NCBI GenBank assembly: GCA_958295465.1
Contig: OY282353.1
Span: forward strand, 5,137,001-5,201,000
From: an uncultured Gammaproteobacteria bacterium
Lineage (GTDB): Bacteria > Pseudomonadota > Gammaproteobacteria > HK1
Direction of reading: 5' to 3'
Length of the DNA stretch: 64,000 nucleotides
Shown here: positions 9,639-25,780 of the stretch, one piece after another
Numbering within the stretch: position 1 is the first letter of the stretch
How the letters are laid out: every line of letters starts with the position of its first letter
Position numbers and translations under genes: made by a program
The notes under the pieces: model-generated
Seen by the model: the letters and a program-made list of their open reading frames with translations, nothing else
The model's database searches: none
What the model was told of the DNA's origin: nothing

Positions 9639-9986
9639 TCAGCTCCCCTCGGGCGACCGGCGGTCCAGGGCGCCCATTACCGCGCCGTTGAACCCGAACA
9701 CCGTGCGCGCGCCGGCATGGGCCACGAGCACGACCTCGCGTTCCTGCCCGGGCTCGAAGCGCACGGCCGTGCCTGCGGGCACGTCGAGCCGGAAACCGCG
9801 CGCTGCGGCGCGGTCGAAGCGCAACGCCTCGTTGGTCTCGCTGAAGTGGTAGTGGGAACCCACCTGCACCGGGCGGTCGCCGGTGTTCGCGACCTTCAGC
9901 GTCACGCGCTCGCGGCCCGCATTGAGCTCGATCTCGCCGGCCTCGACGAGCACTTCACCCGGAATCAGCGGATCGGAGGGCGGCAC
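9639..9986 (-). CDS. ureB: Urease beta subunit UreB
   Basis: A 115-residue structural subunit of urease. [19 protein letters not shown] and [19 protein letters not shown] are the conserved family segments. The frame continues upstream to 10073, but GTG at 9986 is preferred: it has a strong Shine-Dalgarno (AAGGAG, 6 bases away) and gives the usual length. It is coupled to ureC across five bases; ureA lies about 210 bases upstream, a large gap for subunits that are often adjacent or fused. Confidence 0.94.
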
Positions 9987-10196
9987 GTCGTCTCCTTGGT
10001 CGTGTGGCGGGTTCGTCGTGGTCGCTCGGTCAGGTTCAGGAGCAGGGCCGGAGGTTCGGAGTGCGGAATTCAAACCCGGACGGCCGCCTCGCTGCCGCGG
10101 AAGCGGCAGCCCCCGGTGCGCGAACCATTGTTGGCTTCGAAAAATACGCCCATGAATTCAACAAGTCGTCGGATACTACGTGTGAAGGTCCAGGAT

Positions 10197-10499
10197 TCAG
10201 ACGATGGGATTGTGGACGGTCACGAGCTTCGTCCCGTCGGGAAAGGTGGCCTCGACCTGCACCTCGGGGATCATCTCCGGCACCCCTTCCATGACGTCCT
10301 CGCGGTCAAGCAGGGTGGCGCCGTAGCTCATGAGCTCGGCGACGCCGCGGCCCTCCCGGGCGCCTTCCATGATCGCGGCGCTGATGTAGGCGACCGCCTC
10401 GGGGTAGTTGAGCCTGAGCCCGCGGGCCTTGCGCCGCTCCGCGAGCAGCGCGGCGGTGAAGAGCAGCAGCTTGTCCTTTTCCCGGGGTGAGAGGTCCAT
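10197..10499 (-). CDS. ureA: Urease gamma subunit UreA
   Basis: A 100-residue subunit, exactly the usual length. It begins [20 protein letters not shown] and contains [20 protein letters not shown], both highly conserved in UreA, and ends with the typical [13 protein letters not shown]. It forms the urease trimer with UreB and UreC. About 250 bases separate it from ureD upstream, without any visible gene. Confidence 0.97.
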
Positions 10500-10746
10500 G
10501 GTAAATCCTCAAGCCGCATCCTTCGATGCCGTTTTACACGGCCCGGAACCACGATGCGAACGGCGACCGCCAGCGCGGTCGCCCCGGCCAGCGCCGCGGA
10601 CGGGCGAGGAATGGATTTGTTCCATACGAGCCGTCCGGATCCCCGGTGCGGAGTCCAATTCGGCTCCGCTCCACCGTCCCGGATCGCAGTGAGTGGCGTC
10701 GATGATTCTCAGACGGCTTCAAAAGATGAGACGAGCCGAAGCCGCT

Positions 10747-20348: not shown

Positions 20349-21077
20349 TCACATCGCCGGCGAGGCGCCGCGTTCCGGCGAATGCCCGCCCGGCGCCGGC
20401 GCTGCGTCGAGGAAGCGCTGCATGGCGCCGATCTCCAGCGTCGTCAACGGATTGGACAGCCCGATGTCCGGCGTGCCTCGAACCCCCAACAGCATACGGG
20501 CGAAGAACTCCTCCGGAGACAGGTCTCTCGCCATGTCATGGAGAGACTCCGCGGGGTTCTCGCTGCCGGGAACCGGGGCATCGTGACATCCTTGGCAATG
20601 CCGCCGATAGACTTCACCGGCCTCGCGCTCGTCCCCCTCCCCCTCCCGGTCGAGAAGGAAGTACGTGACATCGAAGGGCGCTTCGCCGGCCAGCTCCGCC
20701 ACGCTCGAGAGAAAGCGGGTCCTCTCACCCGATCCGAACAGGTCCCGAAGCCGCCTGATGCGCGGGATGAAGCCGCTCCCGGCGCCGGAGCGCCTCCCCG
20801 CGGCCGCCGCGTAGCGCCGGCATATCAAGGGCAGGGTGGCCAGCGCGGCCGAAATGCGATTCCGCAACCCCCGGTACCGCGGGCCGCCGCGTTCGGCTCG
20901 ATAGAACTTCCGCGCGTCTGCCAGCATCACCAGCAGCTCGGCCGGACAGAGCAACCGATCGCGAAGCTCGAACGATGCGGCCGCGGCGTTCGGCGCCGCC
21001 GCGGCCAGGATGCAGAGCAGGACGCCTCCTGCAGCGTTATTCAATAGAGACTCGACGTTCCATCGGCAGACTCTCAT
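20349..21077 (-). CDS. Exported c-type cytochrome (single haem)
   Basis: A 242-residue protein with an N-terminal signal peptide (AAGGVLLCILAAAAPNAAAA) and a single CxxCH haem site (YRRHCQGCHDAP) at about residue 170, followed by a typical cytochrome c tail with MARDLSPEEFFARMLLGVRG and ALQRFL-like ending (IGAMQRFLDAAP). The first ~130 residues after the signal are not a known domain to me. ATG at 21077 has GGAG five bases away and overlaps the rhodanese gene by 41 bases. It is the last gene of the sulfur operon and could carry electrons released by sulfur oxidation in the periplasm. Confidence 0.75.
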   Translation of the reverse strand: MRVCRWNVESLLNNAAGGVLLCILAAAAPNAAAASFELRDRLLCPAELLVMLADARKFYRAERGGPRYRGLRNRISAALATLPLICRRYAAAAGRRSGAGSGFIPRIRRLRDLFGSGERTRFLSSVAELAGEAPFDVTYFLLDREGEGDEREAGEVYRRHCQGCHDAPVPGSENPAESLHDMARDLSPEEFFARMLLGVRGTPDIGLSNPLTTLEIGAMQRFLDAAPAPGGHSPERGASPAM

Positions 21078-21966
21078 CCGCGCTCCACTCCACCATGGAC
21101 CCGTCGTAGAGCGCAGCGTTGCCGTTGCCCATCAGCTCGCTGCTGACGAACCAGCCCAGGGAGGCCCAGTGGCCGGTGTTGCAGAAGGCGATCTGATTCG
21201 ACTCGGGGTCGACGTCGGCGAGGGCATAGAGCTGCTCCAGCTCCGCGGCGGGCCGGAAAGTGCCGCCGCCGTTGACCGTCAACCAGCTCTCCGGCAGGCT
21301 CCGGGCGGTCGGGATGGTGCCATTGCGCATCGATCGGGGATGCCGGTTGATGCCGACGTACTGGTGGTTGGGACGCATATCGACCAGGGTGATCCCGTCG
21401 TCGTCGATGGCGTTCTCGACGTCCTCCCTGGTGATCAGCATGCCGGTGCGCAGATTCGGCGCGAAGGTCCGGGGCTCCGGCTTGTTGTTGCCCTTTTCGA
21501 TCCTGTTCGTTTCGTCCGCCGCGTATGCAAGATAACCGCCGTTCAGTATCGATACGTCGTCGTGGCCGAGGACCTTGAACGTCCAGTACATGCGGGTTGC
21601 GCTTCCCATGTCGACGGCGTTCTTGCCGTGGTGGTAGATCACCACGTGGGTGTCGTTGTCGATACCGAGGGCGCCGATCAGCGTGGCGAGATCTTCCGGC
21701 TTCGACAACTGGCCCGGTACCTTGTCGACCTCGCTCCTCCAGCCACCCTTCAGGTAGTCGGTGTACACCGCGCACGGGATGTGTCCCTGCAGGTACGCGG
21801 TCCTGGAGCCTCCGTCCAGCGGGTTGCGAATATCCAGCACCCTCACGCCCTCGTCGCAGGCGTGATCCTTGATCCAGCCGACGTCGACGAGCGGCTCGGC
21901 GGCTATCGACAGTGAGCAGATGCCCATGGCCGTAACGATGGCGGCTGATTTCAGAAGACGATTCAT
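21037..21966 (-). CDS. Periplasmic two-domain sulfurtransferase (rhodanese)
   Basis: About 309 residues with a signal peptide (MNRLLKSAAIVTAMGICSLS) and two rhodanese domains. The first lacks a catalytic Cys; the second has IAFCNTGHWASLGWF, giving an active-site Cys in a CNTGHW loop rather than the usual CRxGxR. ATG at 21966 has AGGAGG upstream. Such enzymes (SseA/thiosulfate sulfurtransferase type) move sulfane sulfur from thiosulfate or mercaptopyruvate to thiol or cyanide acceptors. Position in the operon suggests the substrate is a periplasmic sulfur compound. Confidence 0.85.
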   Translation of the reverse strand: MNRLLKSAAIVTAMGICSLSIAAEPLVDVGWIKDHACDEGVRVLDIRNPLDGGSRTAYLQGHIPCAVYTDYLKGGWRSEVDKVPGQLSKPEDLATLIGALGIDNDTHVVIYHHGKNAVDMGSATRMYWTFKVLGHDDVSILNGGYLAYAADETNRIEKGNNKPEPRTFAPNLRTGMLITREDVENAIDDDGITLVDMRPNHQYVGINRHPRSMRNGTIPTARSLPESWLTVNGGGTFRPAAELEQLYALADVDPESNQIAFCNTGHWASLGWFVSSELMGNGNAALYDGSMVEWSADESLPMERRVSIE

Positions 21967-22001: not shown

Positions 22002-22199
22002 TCAAAGTGTGATGCACCGATCGTTGTCCAGCACTGCTTCCAGCGCTCGATCCCAATCGGCCGTCGACATTGCCCCGATGTCGCCATCGATGACAAATTC
22101 GGTGCTTCGAAATCTTTCCGGCAGGCTCCGTATCGCCGGTGCGGTTCGATGGTCTTCGAACAGCCGGGTACGCAGCACCAGCAGGCGTATTTCAGACAT
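22002..22199 (-). CDS. 65-residue protein in DsrH/TusB position
   Basis: A small soluble protein, beginning MSEIRLLVLRTRLFEDHR and ending DRCITL with a Cys close to the C-terminus. It overlaps the preceding DsrF-like gene and follows DsrE- and DsrF-like genes, the position DsrH/TusB occupies in dsrEFH/tusDCB operons, but it is shorter than DsrH and I see no clear homology. Could be a reduced or divergent third subunit. Confidence 0.5.
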   Translation of the reverse strand: MSEIRLLVLRTRLFEDHRTAPAIRSLPERFRSTEFVIDGDIGAMSTADWDRALEAVLDNDRCITL

Positions 22200-22473
22200 T
22201 GATCACGAACTCCGCATCTTCGACGAGCTGGTAGAAATCACCATCGGAGATGCCCGGTACTTCGGGGTCTTCATACAGGGATTTCGGTGAGATTTCGGCA
22301 AGCTCGACCAGTTCGGCGAACTGCTCCATTTCGGGCACGACTTCGAGCCGTCCATGAGCGAACACCAGTGCTACGTCGTGTCCGAACACGGTGATCCCCG
22401 CCGCGACGCGCATGGCTTCCAGCGGGTCCCGGCGCGCGACGACGAGGACCGACTTCGCGGCGATTCCGTTCAC
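22192..22473 (-). CDS. DsrE/DsrF-like sulfur-relay protein (second)
   Basis: A 93-residue protein, starting with GTG at 22473 in a GTGA overlap with the preceding stop. It has a beta strand SVLVVARRDPLEAMRVAAGI, then VFGHDVALVFAHGRLEV, resembling the DsrE/F fold where a first strand is followed by a helix and a second strand. It has no cysteine, so it would be a structural partner, as TusC/DsrF is to TusD/DsrE. Moderately confident about the fold, less about the role. Confidence 0.6.
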   Translation of the reverse strand: MNGIAAKSVLVVARRDPLEAMRVAAGITVFGHDVALVFAHGRLEVVPEMEQFAELVELAEISPKSLYEDPEVPGISDGDFYQLVEDAEFVINV

Positions 22474-22760
22474 AGCGAGACCACTCGGCCCGCGGACCCC
22501 AGCATCCGGCTGTGATCGGTCTGGCTGCCAAGGGTCAGCGGGCACGAACCGCCCGGCATCGCCTGGCTCCAGGAGTGTTCGCACACCACCGCTTCAGCCG
22601 CGGATCCGGCGCAGGCGACGACGGTGGAGTCGGACAGCGCCCGTACCCCGTCACCGGTGAAGAAGATGGAGAATTCCACGTCCTTCCTCCGGCAGGCAGC
22701 GGAGAATCCGCGCAGATAATCGCCTGAGCCGCGGTGGGCGACGATGAACAGAATGGTCAT
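22470..22760 (-). CDS. DsrE-family sulfur carrier
   Basis: A 96-residue protein beginning MTILFIVAHRGSGDYLRGFS, with VEFSIFFTGDGVRAL, the core pattern of the DsrE fold (Rossmann-like strand, helix and a F-x-GDGV loop). Cysteines in VVACAGSAAEAVVCEHSW and GGSCPLT are candidates for the persulfide carrier. Start overlaps the upstream gene as ATGA and stop overlaps the next as GTGA. Together with the DsrF-like and TusA genes it forms a cytoplasmic sulfur relay. Confidence 0.72.
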   Translation of the reverse strand: MTILFIVAHRGSGDYLRGFSAACRRKDVEFSIFFTGDGVRALSDSTVVACAGSAAEAVVCEHSWSQAMPGGSCPLTLGSQTDHSRMLGSAGRVVSL

Positions 22761-23668
22761 CCGCGCCTTCCAGCCATCGCGCGAGCCATGAAGGCGATGC
22801 AGAGAATCGCGACGGCGCCCAGCCCCGCGGCCAGCCACGGAATGCGCCCGAGGCCGGCACGCGGCGCGCCGAAGCTCTCGACGGAGCGGCCGCGGAGGCC
22901 GTCGAGATGGACCCTGGCCGGAGCGGTGGGGTCTCGAAGCAGGAGACGGACGAGATGGACGACCGCTTCGCGGGTATCCCGGGCAAGCAGCAGCAAGGAA
23001 CCCTCGCCGTCGTGCCGGTACAGCAACGGGGTGTCCCGCTGCGGACCGGACAGCCAACCCGCTTCTTCGAACGATTGCGGATACTCGAGCCGCGTGACGG
23101 TTCCGGTGCCGAAGAACGAACGGACGTCGTCATCCAGTGCGATGTACTCGTCTCGCATCGGATCGGTGTAGAAACGGCTCCGCAACATGCTTCGAAGCCT
23201 CCCGGCGCCCCGTATCCGGGAGCCGGGAAGCGCCTCGGCGTCGCCCTGCCAGACCACCACGCGAGATTGACCCAGCAGAAAGAGCATTCCCGCGACAAAA
23301 TCCTTGTCGGACTCGCCGCCGCCGAACACGACGGCGGTCCGCGCAGGCTCCAGGCCGAACGCGCCGGCCAGCCAGTTGATGTCGCGAAAGCTCGCGGATG
23401 CTCCGTCGGGATGAAGAAACTGCGACGGCGCCATGCAGAGCGCGCCCTCGACGCTGCCGCCGGCGCAGGTGTCCGCTTCACGGGTATCGACGAACACCGG
23501 AGACTCCAGCGCGACAATCACGTTCGGATGGGTGGTGGCGGAGATGGCGCCCGCGGCTTGCCGGGAGAGCGTGAGCACCGCGAGCAGCAGCATCGGCAAC
23601 GGCGCTCCCGGGCGGAATCCGGACCGGCGCCGCCGGCGTCGAGGATGTTCGGCGTGTCCTGGATCCAC
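22757..23668 (-). CDS. Tail-anchored rhodanese-like protein without catalytic Cys
   Basis: About 303 residues: an Arg-rich start and hydrophobic signal (MLLLAVLTLSRQAAGA), a rhodanese-like domain (SPVFVDTREADTC, VEGALCMAPSQFL), and a C-terminal transmembrane helix (IPWLAAGLGAVAILCIAFMA). At the position of the rhodanese active-site loop the sequence reads VVFGGGESDKDF, without Cys. It should sit in the periplasm, anchored by its tail. Start is uncertain: TTG at 23698 (14-base overlap with the upstream gene), GTG at 23668, or ATG at 23593. It may bind rather than transfer sulfur. Confidence 0.6.
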   Translation of the reverse strand: MDPGHAEHPRRRRRRSGFRPGAPLPMLLLAVLTLSRQAAGAISATTHPNVIVALESPVFVDTREADTCAGGSVEGALCMAPSQFLHPDGASASFRDINWLAGAFGLEPARTAVVFGGGESDKDFVAGMLFLLGQSRVVVWQGDAEALPGSRIRGAGRLRSMLRSRFYTDPMRDEYIALDDDVRSFFGTGTVTRLEYPQSFEEAGWLSGPQRDTPLLYRHDGEGSLLLLARDTREAVVHLVRLLLRDPTAPARVHLDGLRGRSVESFGAPRAGLGRIPWLAAGLGAVAILCIAFMARAMAGRRG

Positions 23669-23684: not shown

Positions 23685-23960
23685 TCAACACCCGCCAAAG
23701 TGCTTCTTCCTCGGCGCCGCTTCGCCCGCTGCCGCCGCCGGCGGGGGATTCTCCAGGTAGTATCCGACCAGCTCGAATACGGTCAATTGCCCGTAGTCGC
23801 TACCCAGGTCGATGAGATCGAATTCCTCCATCGGCTGGGGCTTGCGAGCCGCCTCCACCTCGGCGGGCGACATGGACGTGTAGGGAAACAGGGCCGCATA
23901 AACGGCCAGCGTGCCGGCTAGCGATACGATGCAGAAGATGAATACTTGCAGGCGCGGCAT
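23685..23960 (-). CDS. Membrane-anchored protein with C-terminal Gly-Gly-Cys
   Basis: A 91-residue protein: N-terminal transmembrane anchor (MPRLQVFIFCIVSLAGTLAV), then a short soluble region (PMEEFDLIDLGSDYGQLTV), a Pro/Ala linker and a C-terminus KKHFGGC. By the positive-inside rule the C-terminus faces the periplasm. A Cys at the end of a flexible Gly arm recalls the GGCGG swinging arm of SoxY, but there is no SoxY domain, so this is only analogy. ATG overlaps the upstream stop by one base (TGATG). Function unknown. Confidence 0.65.
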   Translation of the reverse strand: MPRLQVFIFCIVSLAGTLAVYAALFPYTSMSPAEVEAARKPQPMEEFDLIDLGSDYGQLTVFELVGYYLENPPPAAAAGEAAPRKKHFGGC

Positions 23961-24046
23961 CAGGAGTCGTCCCTGGTGAAGCTGACGTACATGGCGTACA
24001 TCGCAGCGAGGAAAGCGATCAGTGCCGCGATTGTTTCAAAGTCCAT
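23960..24046 (-). CDS. 28-residue membrane peptide
   Basis: A very short gene: MDFETIAALIAFLAAMY starts an uninterrupted hydrophobic helix, ending in TRDDS. It begins one base after the upstream stop (TGACATG) and its stop overlaps the next ATG, so it is coupled on both sides. The layout resembles small subunits of membrane complexes such as CcoQ or CydX. Both junctions argue that it is translated; function is unknown. Confidence 0.6.
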   Translation of the reverse strand: MDFETIAALIAFLAAMYAMYVSFTRDDS

Positions 24047-24281: not shown

Positions 24282-24587
24282 TCAGTTCTTCTTCAGCAGG
24301 ACCTGCCAATGGCGTGACCGGCGGAGCGTCCCGAGATGGGTACCGCCGTTCTCCTCGATGATCGGCGGGAGCGCTTCCATGGAGGTGGGGTTGTCGATCT
24401 TCACCTCGATGACGTCGCCGGAGCGGGCCTTGCCGAGGGCGTTCCGCGTGAAGATCTGAGGTCGAGGGCAGGAGTCGCCGATGCAGTCCACGACCGTCGT
24501 CGCGGTGACGGTCTCACCACCATCCAGGGTCACGGGAGCTCCCGTTGCCTGGTTCTCCGGCTCGGTTTTCCTTCCGAAAAGGCCCAT
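24282..24587 (-). CDS. TusA-like sulfur carrier protein
   Basis: A 101-residue cytoplasmic protein of the TusA/SirA fold. The carrier Cys is in DCIGDSCPRPQIFTRNALG (the CPxP motif), followed by KARSGDVIEVKIDNPTS, the family's typical strand. TusA receives sulfur from a sulfurtransferase or permease and hands it to DsrE/TusD. The adjacent YeeE/YedE permease halves are known partners: YeeD, a TusA homolog, sits beside the thiosulfate importer YeeE in other bacteria. An unusual N-terminal extension of about 30 residues precedes the domain. Confidence 0.9.
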   Translation of the reverse strand: MGLFGRKTEPENQATGAPVTLDGGETVTATTVVDCIGDSCPRPQIFTRNALGKARSGDVIEVKIDNPTSMEALPPIIEENGGTHLGTLRRSRHWQVLLKKN

Positions 24588-24684: not shown

Positions 24685-25287
24685 TTACCCGATGCTCGCC
24701 ATTCTTCCGGCGCCGGGACGTTCCCTGCGTACTATGGATCGATAGATCGCGAACAGCACGGCGAATTGCACCAATCCGAAAACGATCGCGGGAATTCCGG
24801 TCTTCTCCTGCAACGTGGCCGCGTTCGAAAAGCCCAACTGGAGGGCTTCCAGGGCCGGTTCTCCGGACATGGCGGCGGGGGCGGGCGGCCAGTAAATGAA
24901 AGACCACACCAGCGAGAAGAGGAACATGCCCGCGAACGTGTAGATGAGCGCCCACATGGCGCCGACGTTGCCCTCGCCCGCCTTGACCCATGTCGATACC
25001 GTGCAGGCGCCGGCCAGCACCATTCCGATTCCGAACAGGAACAGCCCGATAATCTGATTGAGGCCGACGTCGAATCGCATCGGATTGCCTTCGCCGATGG
25101 TGATGAAACCGGTGAATCCGAGCGTCAATATCATCATCGCGACAAGCAGGGCCTTGGTGTTGCGGTAGGTTTTGAAAAGCATCGCGTCACGCAGCGCGGC
25201 GGTATTGCAGAATCGGGATCGTTGCACGAGAAGGCCGACCGCGGTGCCGAACACGAAGGCCAGGACACATTCTCCGACGACGCTCAT
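24685..25287 (-). CDS. YeeE/YedE-type sulfur permease, second half
   Basis: A 200-residue protein with about five transmembrane helices. It carries VGLLVQRSRFCNTAALRD and LAGACTVSTWVKAGEG, the Cys-bearing motifs that line the thiosulfate path in YeeE/TsuA. Together with the next upstream gene it reconstitutes the two pseudo-symmetric halves of one YeeE/YedE protein. Separate halves are known in other sulfur bacteria (PmpA/PmpB type). Gap between the two genes is one base. It likely imports thiosulfate or another sulfane compound. Confidence 0.85.
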   Translation of the reverse strand: MSVVGECVLAFVFGTAVGLLVQRSRFCNTAALRDAMLFKTYRNTKALLVAMMILTLGFTGFITIGEGNPMRFDVGLNQIIGLFLFGIGMVLAGACTVSTWVKAGEGNVGAMWALIYTFAGMFLFSLVWSFIYWPPAPAAMSGEPALEALQLGFSNAATLQEKTGIPAIVFGLVQFAVLFAIYRSIVRRERPGAGRMASIG

Positions 25288-25288
25288 G

Positions 25289-25780
25289 TCACACTCCCAG
25301 GATTCGTTTGTATATCAGGGATCCCACCCAGGCACCGGCGATGATTCCGCTGATGGCCAGATAACCCCCCAGGTTCAGCTCCGGTGTCAGTCCGAAGAAC
25401 GTGCTGACGTTGCAGACGAAGGCGAGCCGGATCCCGATACCCATGAGGAGCCCGCCGATGGTGATCATGATCCACTCCGAGAGCCGGCGCGGGTAGCGGA
25501 TGAAGAATTCCCCGCTCATGACCGCGCCGATGACCGCACCGAACAGCATGCCCAGGCTGATGTAGATCTTCCAGTAGCCCGCGTCCGGCTCGAACACGAG
25601 CTGCCAGAAGGGAATTCTTCGAAGGTCGTCGCCCATGAAGAATTCCGCGATGAGGCCCGTCATCATCGTTTCACCGCCGCCTACCGTCCAGGCGCCGAGC
25701 TGCAGAAACAGAAAGATGTCGAGCACGGCGATCGCGGCGAGGGCGATCACCGGGTCGAGGGTCTTGCGGAAGAACTCCAT
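25289..25780 (-). CDS. YeeE/YedE-type sulfur permease, first half
   Basis: A 163-residue protein with four or five transmembrane helices; SLGMLFGAVIGAVMSGEFFI and GIGIRLAFVCNVSTFFGL match the GxRxAxxCN motif of YeeE/YedE permeases. It is the first gene of the minus-strand sulfur operon, and its stop almost touches the start of the second half. The upstream spacer (142 bases) is shared with a divergent ribbon-helix-helix gene. Confidence 0.85.
   Translation of the reverse strand: MEFFRKTLDPVIALAAIAVLDIFLFLQLGAWTVGGGETMMTGLIAEFFMGDDLRRIPFWQLVFEPDAGYWKIYISLGMLFGAVIGAVMSGEFFIRYPRRLSEWIMITIGGLLMGIGIRLAFVCNVSTFFGLTPELNLGGYLAISGIIAGAWVGSLIYKRILGV

Follow-up and report, generated by a model that had tools for sequence, protein, structure and literature searches.

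A conserved C-terminal Gly-Cys on a small membrane-anchored protein encoded with a split YeeE permease: a candidate sulfur-carrying arm

The window we analyzed, a stretch of 64,000 nucleotides from an uncultured gammaproteobacterium (contig OY282353.1), contains a compact operon on the minus strand that spans positions 25780 to 20349 (Table 1). Its two permease genes match opposite halves of PF04143 above the cut-off (1-150 and 171-310 of 310), and the TusA gene matches PF01206 above the cut-off with 47.5 bits. The assignment of three further proteins to DsrE, DsrF and DsrH is weak as judged by sequence: the first matches the Pfam DsrE family at E 0.005, which is below the cut-off, and the other two have no Pfam match. 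Rhd2 carries the motif CNTGHWAS, which includes C262 and which we take to be the rhodanese active-site loop. The cytochrome c encoded last matches no curated family above that family's cut-off.

Table 1. Genes of the minus-strand operon in the window, with the cysteines conserved among their orthologues.
Feature	Coordinates	Strand	Cysteines and remarks
YeeE/YedE C-terminal half (YeeEa, PmpA-like permease subunit)	25289..25780	minus	C123 (16/16)
YeeE/YedE N-terminal half (YeeEb, PmpB-like permease subunit)	24685..25287	minus	C27 and C95 (16/16 each); C7 (14/16)
TusA-family sulfurtransferase	24282..24587	minus	invariant C40 (17/17); C35 (15/17)
TM1, membrane-anchored, 71 aa	24048..24263	minus	probable arm paralogue, without Cys here; no conserved Cys column in orthologues
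28-aa single-helix membrane protein	23960..24046	minus	
GGC arm protein, 91 aa	23685..23960	minus	membrane anchor at the N-terminus, small domain, tail rich in Pro/Ala that ends in Cys91
RhdTM, membrane-tethered tandem rhodanese	22757..23593	minus	pair C43/C53, counted from its Met, in domain 1 (17/17); C-terminal membrane helix; start codon inferred
DsrE-like protein	22470..22760	minus	C72, query numbering (18/18); C85 (16/18)
DsrF-like position, conserved	22192..22479	minus	no conserved Cys column in orthologues; start approximate
DsrH-like position, short protein	22002..22199	minus	
Rhd2, SseA-like rhodanese	21037..21966	minus	C37, C65 and C262 (14/14 each), the last in loop CNTGHWAS (14/14); N-terminal hydrophobic leader
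Single-haem cytochrome c	20349..21077	minus	CxxCH, both Cys conserved (16/16)

The protein under study, which we call the arm protein, is read from an ATG at 23960 down to 23685 and ends in KKHFGGC followed by the stop codon; its ATG shares bases with the stop codon of the 28-aa gene before it (TGATG). The original prediction had given the interval without a strand and had described an N-terminal membrane anchor and an HFGGC end. The interval holds a genuine gene on the minus strand, and the reading frame and its hydrophobicity bear out both features. A single hydrophobic helix covers residues 6-24, at a mean Kyte-Doolittle value of 2.37; its N-terminal side has a net charge of +1 and its C-terminal side one of -3. 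In all 14 arm proteins compared, one strong hydrophobic segment lies close to the N-terminus. The flank before this segment has a net positive charge in 13 of them, and the flank after it is neutral or negative, likewise in 13. Because the N-flank is positive and the C-flank negative, the positive-inside rule suggests an N-in/C-out orientation, which would place the Cys in the periplasm. The AlphaFold2 model, calculated from 11 sequences (mean pLDDT 71, pTM 0.29), has helices at 3-28, 32-38 and 61-70 and a hairpin at 49-51/58-60, with the folded part reaching to about residue 70. The tail from 71 to 91, some 20 residues up to the Cys, has low pLDDT and is predicted to be flexible and disordered. 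The family does not resemble known proteins in the collections that we searched: none of 14 members matched Pfam or NCBIfam at E<=0.01, the best Foldseek match of the model in the PDB had an E-value of 3.4 (none at E<=0.001), and the best match of the profile in the PDB, at E 0.29, is not credible.

We searched for homologues in 17 genomes of the family, 369 of the class and 299 of the phylum, in two other families (2 and 5 genomes), and in one scan of species genomes. The arm protein was found in 20 genomes, which represent about 15 lineages once near-duplicates are merged (the genome of the window and G005; G100 and G223; loci L038-L040). The carriers are sulfur-oxidizing bacteria and include Thiobacillus, Sulfuriferula and Thiotrichales. 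The phylum search added G633, the family of five genomes contributed G667, and L038-L041 and L044 come from the scan of species genomes; no arm protein was found in G666, which belongs to the same genus as G667, or in two other members of that family, and a tblastn search of plasmid records with the arm protein gave no match. The contig of L038 is labelled as a Rhizobium sp. MAG, and its operon is nearly identical to the Thiobacillus operon (L039, L040); the contig is probably misnamed or misbinned. Several weaker matches were rejected as homologues: G355 (E 0.009), G578 and G644 (E about 5e-4), and 14 matches with E-values of 0.02-0.1 in the 369 class genomes. The 17 loci concerned (about 2-3 kb each) contain no operon protein at E<=1e-3 and for this reason are excluded from every count.

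All 20 homologues end in Gly-Cys followed by the stop codon. The exact GGC that had been proposed as invariant is present in 18, with AGC in L044 and TGC in G281, so that the invariance holds for Gly-Cys and not for the full triplet. In an alignment of 14 diverse sequences the columns of G90 and C91 have zero entropy, and the linker that precedes them is the least conserved stretch of the protein, averaging 2.39 bits over columns 74-86 versus 1.69 over all columns. Within the tip, invariance is limited to Gly-Cys; the residue preceding FGGC varies and is often His, Gln or Arg. C91 is the sole conserved Cys of the protein (17/17); C10 in the membrane helix is found in 10 of 17. A terminal Cys is absent from all 45 long, non-overlapping ORFs examined in the window. 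A chance terminus or a misread reading frame can be ruled out, because Gly-Cys is kept in all 20 genomes and the operon is conserved.

The distribution of the arm protein coincides with that of the permease. When the permease N-terminal half is sought at a threshold fixed in advance (E<=1e-40) and a limit of E<=1.5e-6 is applied to the arm family, the two proteins occur in an identical set of 11 of the 369 class genomes, and the remaining 358 contain neither at these thresholds. An operon of this kind whose arm protein has lost its terminal Cys, which the original prediction had named as its refutation, was sought and not found: all 11 permease-positive genomes retain the residue. The arm gene accompanies the permease/TusA operon at every locus that could be read. 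The terminal Gly-Cys is almost certainly functional and part of this sulfur operon.

The gene order is constant over the 18 loci scanned wherever their length suffices, with few exceptions. An Rhd2 orthologue within the operon is absent from L046, L048 and L050 (G281), although in L046 a relative with 30% identity lies upstream on the opposite strand; L050 has no cytochrome c match, and a DsrH match is confined to the close relatives L042 and L043. L037, L051 and L053 are incomplete because the contig or locus ends. The 28-aa protein was missed by tblastn and found by reading frames in L038-L040, L044, L047, L050 and L053. Considering the conserved cysteines of the operon (Table 1), the arm Cys and C262 of Rhd2 are the obvious candidates for free periplasmic thiols beside the cysteines of the permease, insofar as sequence can tell.

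Metabolic markers were counted in 19 operon genomes, with G667 left out. Of these, 17 have dsrA above the cut-off of its family, while G223 carries a fragment of it and G277 lacks it; DsrC-family proteins are found in 18, and SoxY in 15, the genomes without it being G071, G222, G661 and G665. From these counts we conclude that the operon goes with Dsr, yet can occur without Dsr (G277) or without SoxY (four genomes). G277 (L047) has the operon and SoxY and neither dsrA nor a DsrC-family protein; since both are absent, its operon may serve another cytoplasmic sulfur oxidation route. The idea that the arm protein compensates for a lost SoxY is unsupported, given that most operon genomes have SoxY.

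The rhodanese gene that adjoins the arm gene encodes a protein that is a tandem rhodanese by profile and by predicted fold: its profile matches sulfurtransferases in the PDB at E 1e-10, and its model (pLDDT 79) aligns with 3utn (Tum1) with a Z score of 15.2 and an rmsd of 3.8 over 212 aligned residues (VIA-align). However, a catalytic Cys is lacking in all 17 orthologues examined, and the loop has no conserved Cys column. The second-domain loop reads, for example, VVYGHDPFES, VVYANDPFES or VAYGAGPYES, and where it is recognisable, Gly or Ala takes the position at which the aligned ergothioneine-synthase rhodanese EanB has its loop Cys; in the lineage of the window the second domain is degraded further. 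The original prediction had proposed the rhodanese as a partner of the arm. Of the two rhodaneses of the operon, the adjoining RhdTM lacks the catalytic Cys, so that Rhd2 is the likely donor. The divergent genome G281 has a different tethered rhodanese with the loop YCQTGVRAS and without the Cys pair of domain 1, which looks active from its loop. New findings are the absence of the catalytic Cys from the RhdTM orthologues and, in G281, an active-looking counterpart together with two arms that have one DsrC-like PTGC tail in common.

The second of these arms belongs to TM1. The profiles of TM1 and the arm protein align with an E-value of 4e-7 and a probability of 93% (hhalign), which supports that the two are paralogues. 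It is no proof, since each is a small protein with a membrane anchor and one of the TM1 sequences, that of G281, carries the copied tail. In G281 (L050, near 9687-9977 and 10106-10534) TM1 and arm share the 12-residue tail ASAKAISAPTGC. The stretches encoding it are identical at 38 of 39 bases, whereas the 30 bases preceding them match at only 10. Because the tails are near-identical while the upstream flank has diverged, the tip was probably copied recently between TM1 and arm, as a module. Both G281 arms end in PTGC, like the DsrC of operon genomes, whose tail reads LPKPTGCV or LPKPTGCI in the loci where it could be read out, 17 of 18; the likeness is short and may reflect convergence. In G222 (L048, near 10084-10360) the long tail of TM1 ends in KNGGH, that is, in Gly-Gly-His, and the arm of the same operon ends in KIGGC. 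In G171 (L049, near 10068-10400) the C-terminus of TM1 is fused to the 28-aa helix protein, whose helix carries a Lys near its end. The fusion would give a protein of two helices joined by a loop on the periplasmic side, an arrangement that would follow if the TM1 chain crosses into the periplasm and the added helix leads it back.

The operon resembles clusters that have been described for other bacteria. The yeeE-tusA-dsrE-chp1-chp2 (YTD) cluster is known from disproportionating and cable bacteria; in the available text of the sources, its chp genes are described as DsrEFH type II, and one subtype belongs partly to Pseudomonadota (PMC13047784, PMC8780430, PMC13293266). The YTD cluster and our operon both have a YeeE-family permease, TusA, a DsrE-like protein with a conserved Cys and divergent small proteins. 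However, compared with the YTD clusters as presented there, the permease is split in two in our operon, which adds three small membrane proteins, a tethered rhodanese without catalytic Cys, an active rhodanese and a cytochrome c (PMC13047784, PMC13293266, PMC8780430). We conclude that the operon extends the published yeeE-tusA-dsrEFH cluster. For cable bacteria, in vitro transfer from persulfidated TusA to Cys67 of DsrE and on to DsrC has been reported (PMC13293266). The split permease has a counterpart in PmpAB, two short proteins that match the N- and C-terminal halves of YeeE and have conserved Cys; PmpAB is described without an arm protein in the accessible part of the source, and the N-half studied here keeps two fully conserved Cys (PMC11582611). 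According to the same text, the YeeE-like SoxT1A imports sulfane sulfur, and it is by unknown means that sulfur carried on SoxYZ gets across the membrane (PMC11582611). Beside SoxT1A lies Hden_0678, likewise a tiny protein (56 aa, one helix) next to a YeeE-like importer; it is without Cys and, judged by its description there, is closer in kind to TM1 or the 28-aa protein (PMC11582611). The accessible text of the literature that we searched holds no description of the arm protein.

Two established sulfur carriers invite comparison. Like SoxY of SoxYZ, the arm protein appears in a setting of periplasmic sulfur metabolism and has a lone Cys after two Gly on a flexible C-terminal arm. However, SoxY is a soluble partner of SoxZ in which Gly-Gly follows the Cys, whereas the arm protein is membrane-anchored and its Cys comes last: all 20 sequences stop at the Cys, and the GGCGG motif is absent. 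The SoxY domain (TIGR04488) was not matched at E<=0.01 by any of 14 members in NCBIfam, which agrees with the original prediction on this point. With DsrC/TusE the arm shares a flexible C-terminal tail with a Cys at its tip, by analogy only. DsrC is cytoplasmic and has its own fold, a second Cys upstream and one residue beyond the terminal Cys, whereas the arm has a membrane helix and a single conserved Cys, and the 14 members have no NCBIfam match to the DsrC domain (TIGR03342) at E<=0.01.

We give roughly even chances to the reading that the arm protein is a membrane-tethered, sulfur-carrying arm that feeds the permease and is analogous, not homologous, to SoxY or DsrC. In this scheme, whose periplasmic orientation, persulfide chemistry, partners and direction of sulfur flow we infer, the protein would belong, as a dedicated subunit, to a machinery that imports sulfane sulfur. 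Anchored in the cytoplasmic membrane by its helix, it would sit next to the split, PmpAB-like YeeE permease, and Cys91 on the flexible periplasmic arm would be loaded with a single sulfur in persulfide form, with C262 of Rhd2 as the most likely donor. The loaded arm would swing the sulfur to the mouth of the permease, from where it would travel along C27, C95 and C123 to C40 of TusA inside the cell. The DsrE-like protein would then relay it to DsrC and reverse Dsr. The independent SoxY-like analogue put forward originally is sustained in that the Gly-Cys is invariant and linked to the permease, the SoxY domain is lacking and the tail is predicted to be disordered; its role as a carrier is what the even chances refer to. 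Other points in favor are the at least one conserved Cys at each proposed relay step, the conserved operon order, the resemblance of the G281 arm tail to that of DsrC, the presence of dsrA and DsrC in nearly all operon genomes, and, in the available text of the sources, published SoxT import and TusA to DsrE to DsrC transfer (PMC11582611, PMC13293266). However, with SoxY encoded in most operon genomes another periplasmic carrier is usually available, and in G277 the operon exists without the proposed end of the relay. Desulfobacterota YTD clusters are described without an arm, as far as the accessible text goes, so that sulfur may pass from YeeE through TusA to DsrE with no such protein. Sequence support for the DsrE/F/H assignment is weak, and the topology is deduced from just two features, the charge bias and the TM1/28-aa fusion in G171.

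Redox, structural or metal-related roles of Cys91 share most of the remaining probability. As a redox element, Cys91 could pair reversibly with the thiol of a partner in a mixed disulfide and so release sulfur or pass electrons to the cytochrome c, by analogy with the action of DsbA or SoxS proposed for SoxYZ. The conserved single-haem cytochrome c that closes the operon fits this role, as does the proposal, in the available text, of SoxS and DsbA as partners for SoxT permeases (PMC11582611), but the arm has one conserved Cys and no CxxC, most loci encode an active rhodanese within the same operon, and we consider a redox function rather unlikely. Alternatively, Cys91 might be structural and cross-link the arm to RhdTM, which has the C43/C53 pair, assembling a complex. 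The arm and RhdTM genes are adjacent in the loci read, and the pair is present throughout; however, its spacing fits an internal disulfide, two proteins of G281 retain the arm Cys alongside a different, active-looking tethered rhodanese that has no such pair, and a flexible tip is an unusual place for a structural bond, which leaves the cross-link an unlikely explanation. A tip that binds metal or haem as a ligand, or that becomes covalently modified (for example in haem handling for the cytochrome c, or with metal-sulfur species), strikes us as very improbable: His, Gln or Arg often precede FGGC and a cytochrome c is encoded nearby, but that position varies, and with only Gly-Cys invariant there is no conserved second ligand. 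A further possibility is a split active site, in which the arm Cys would dock in the vacant pocket of RhdTM, act in catalysis in trans and then swing the persulfide to the permease. RhdTM has kept the rhodanese fold and lost the catalytic Cys, as such a division of labor would have it; the coexistence in G281 of arm tips with an active-looking tethered rhodanese speaks against it, and we regard it as quite unlikely.

If the split active site were nevertheless true, the arm would act as a mobile residue of an active site and couple an enzyme in the periplasm to a chain of cysteines through the membrane, a kind of carrier for which we met no described counterpart. More generally, the operon provides a candidate parts list for the route by which sulfane sulfur passes from periplasmic carriers into the cell and on to TusA and Dsr. 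Among these parts is the arm protein, which has 91 aa, a membrane anchor, no annotation and a single conserved Cys; we propose it as a hand-over arm, and its gene provides a further genomic marker for yeeE-tusA-dsrEFH clusters in Pseudomonadota.
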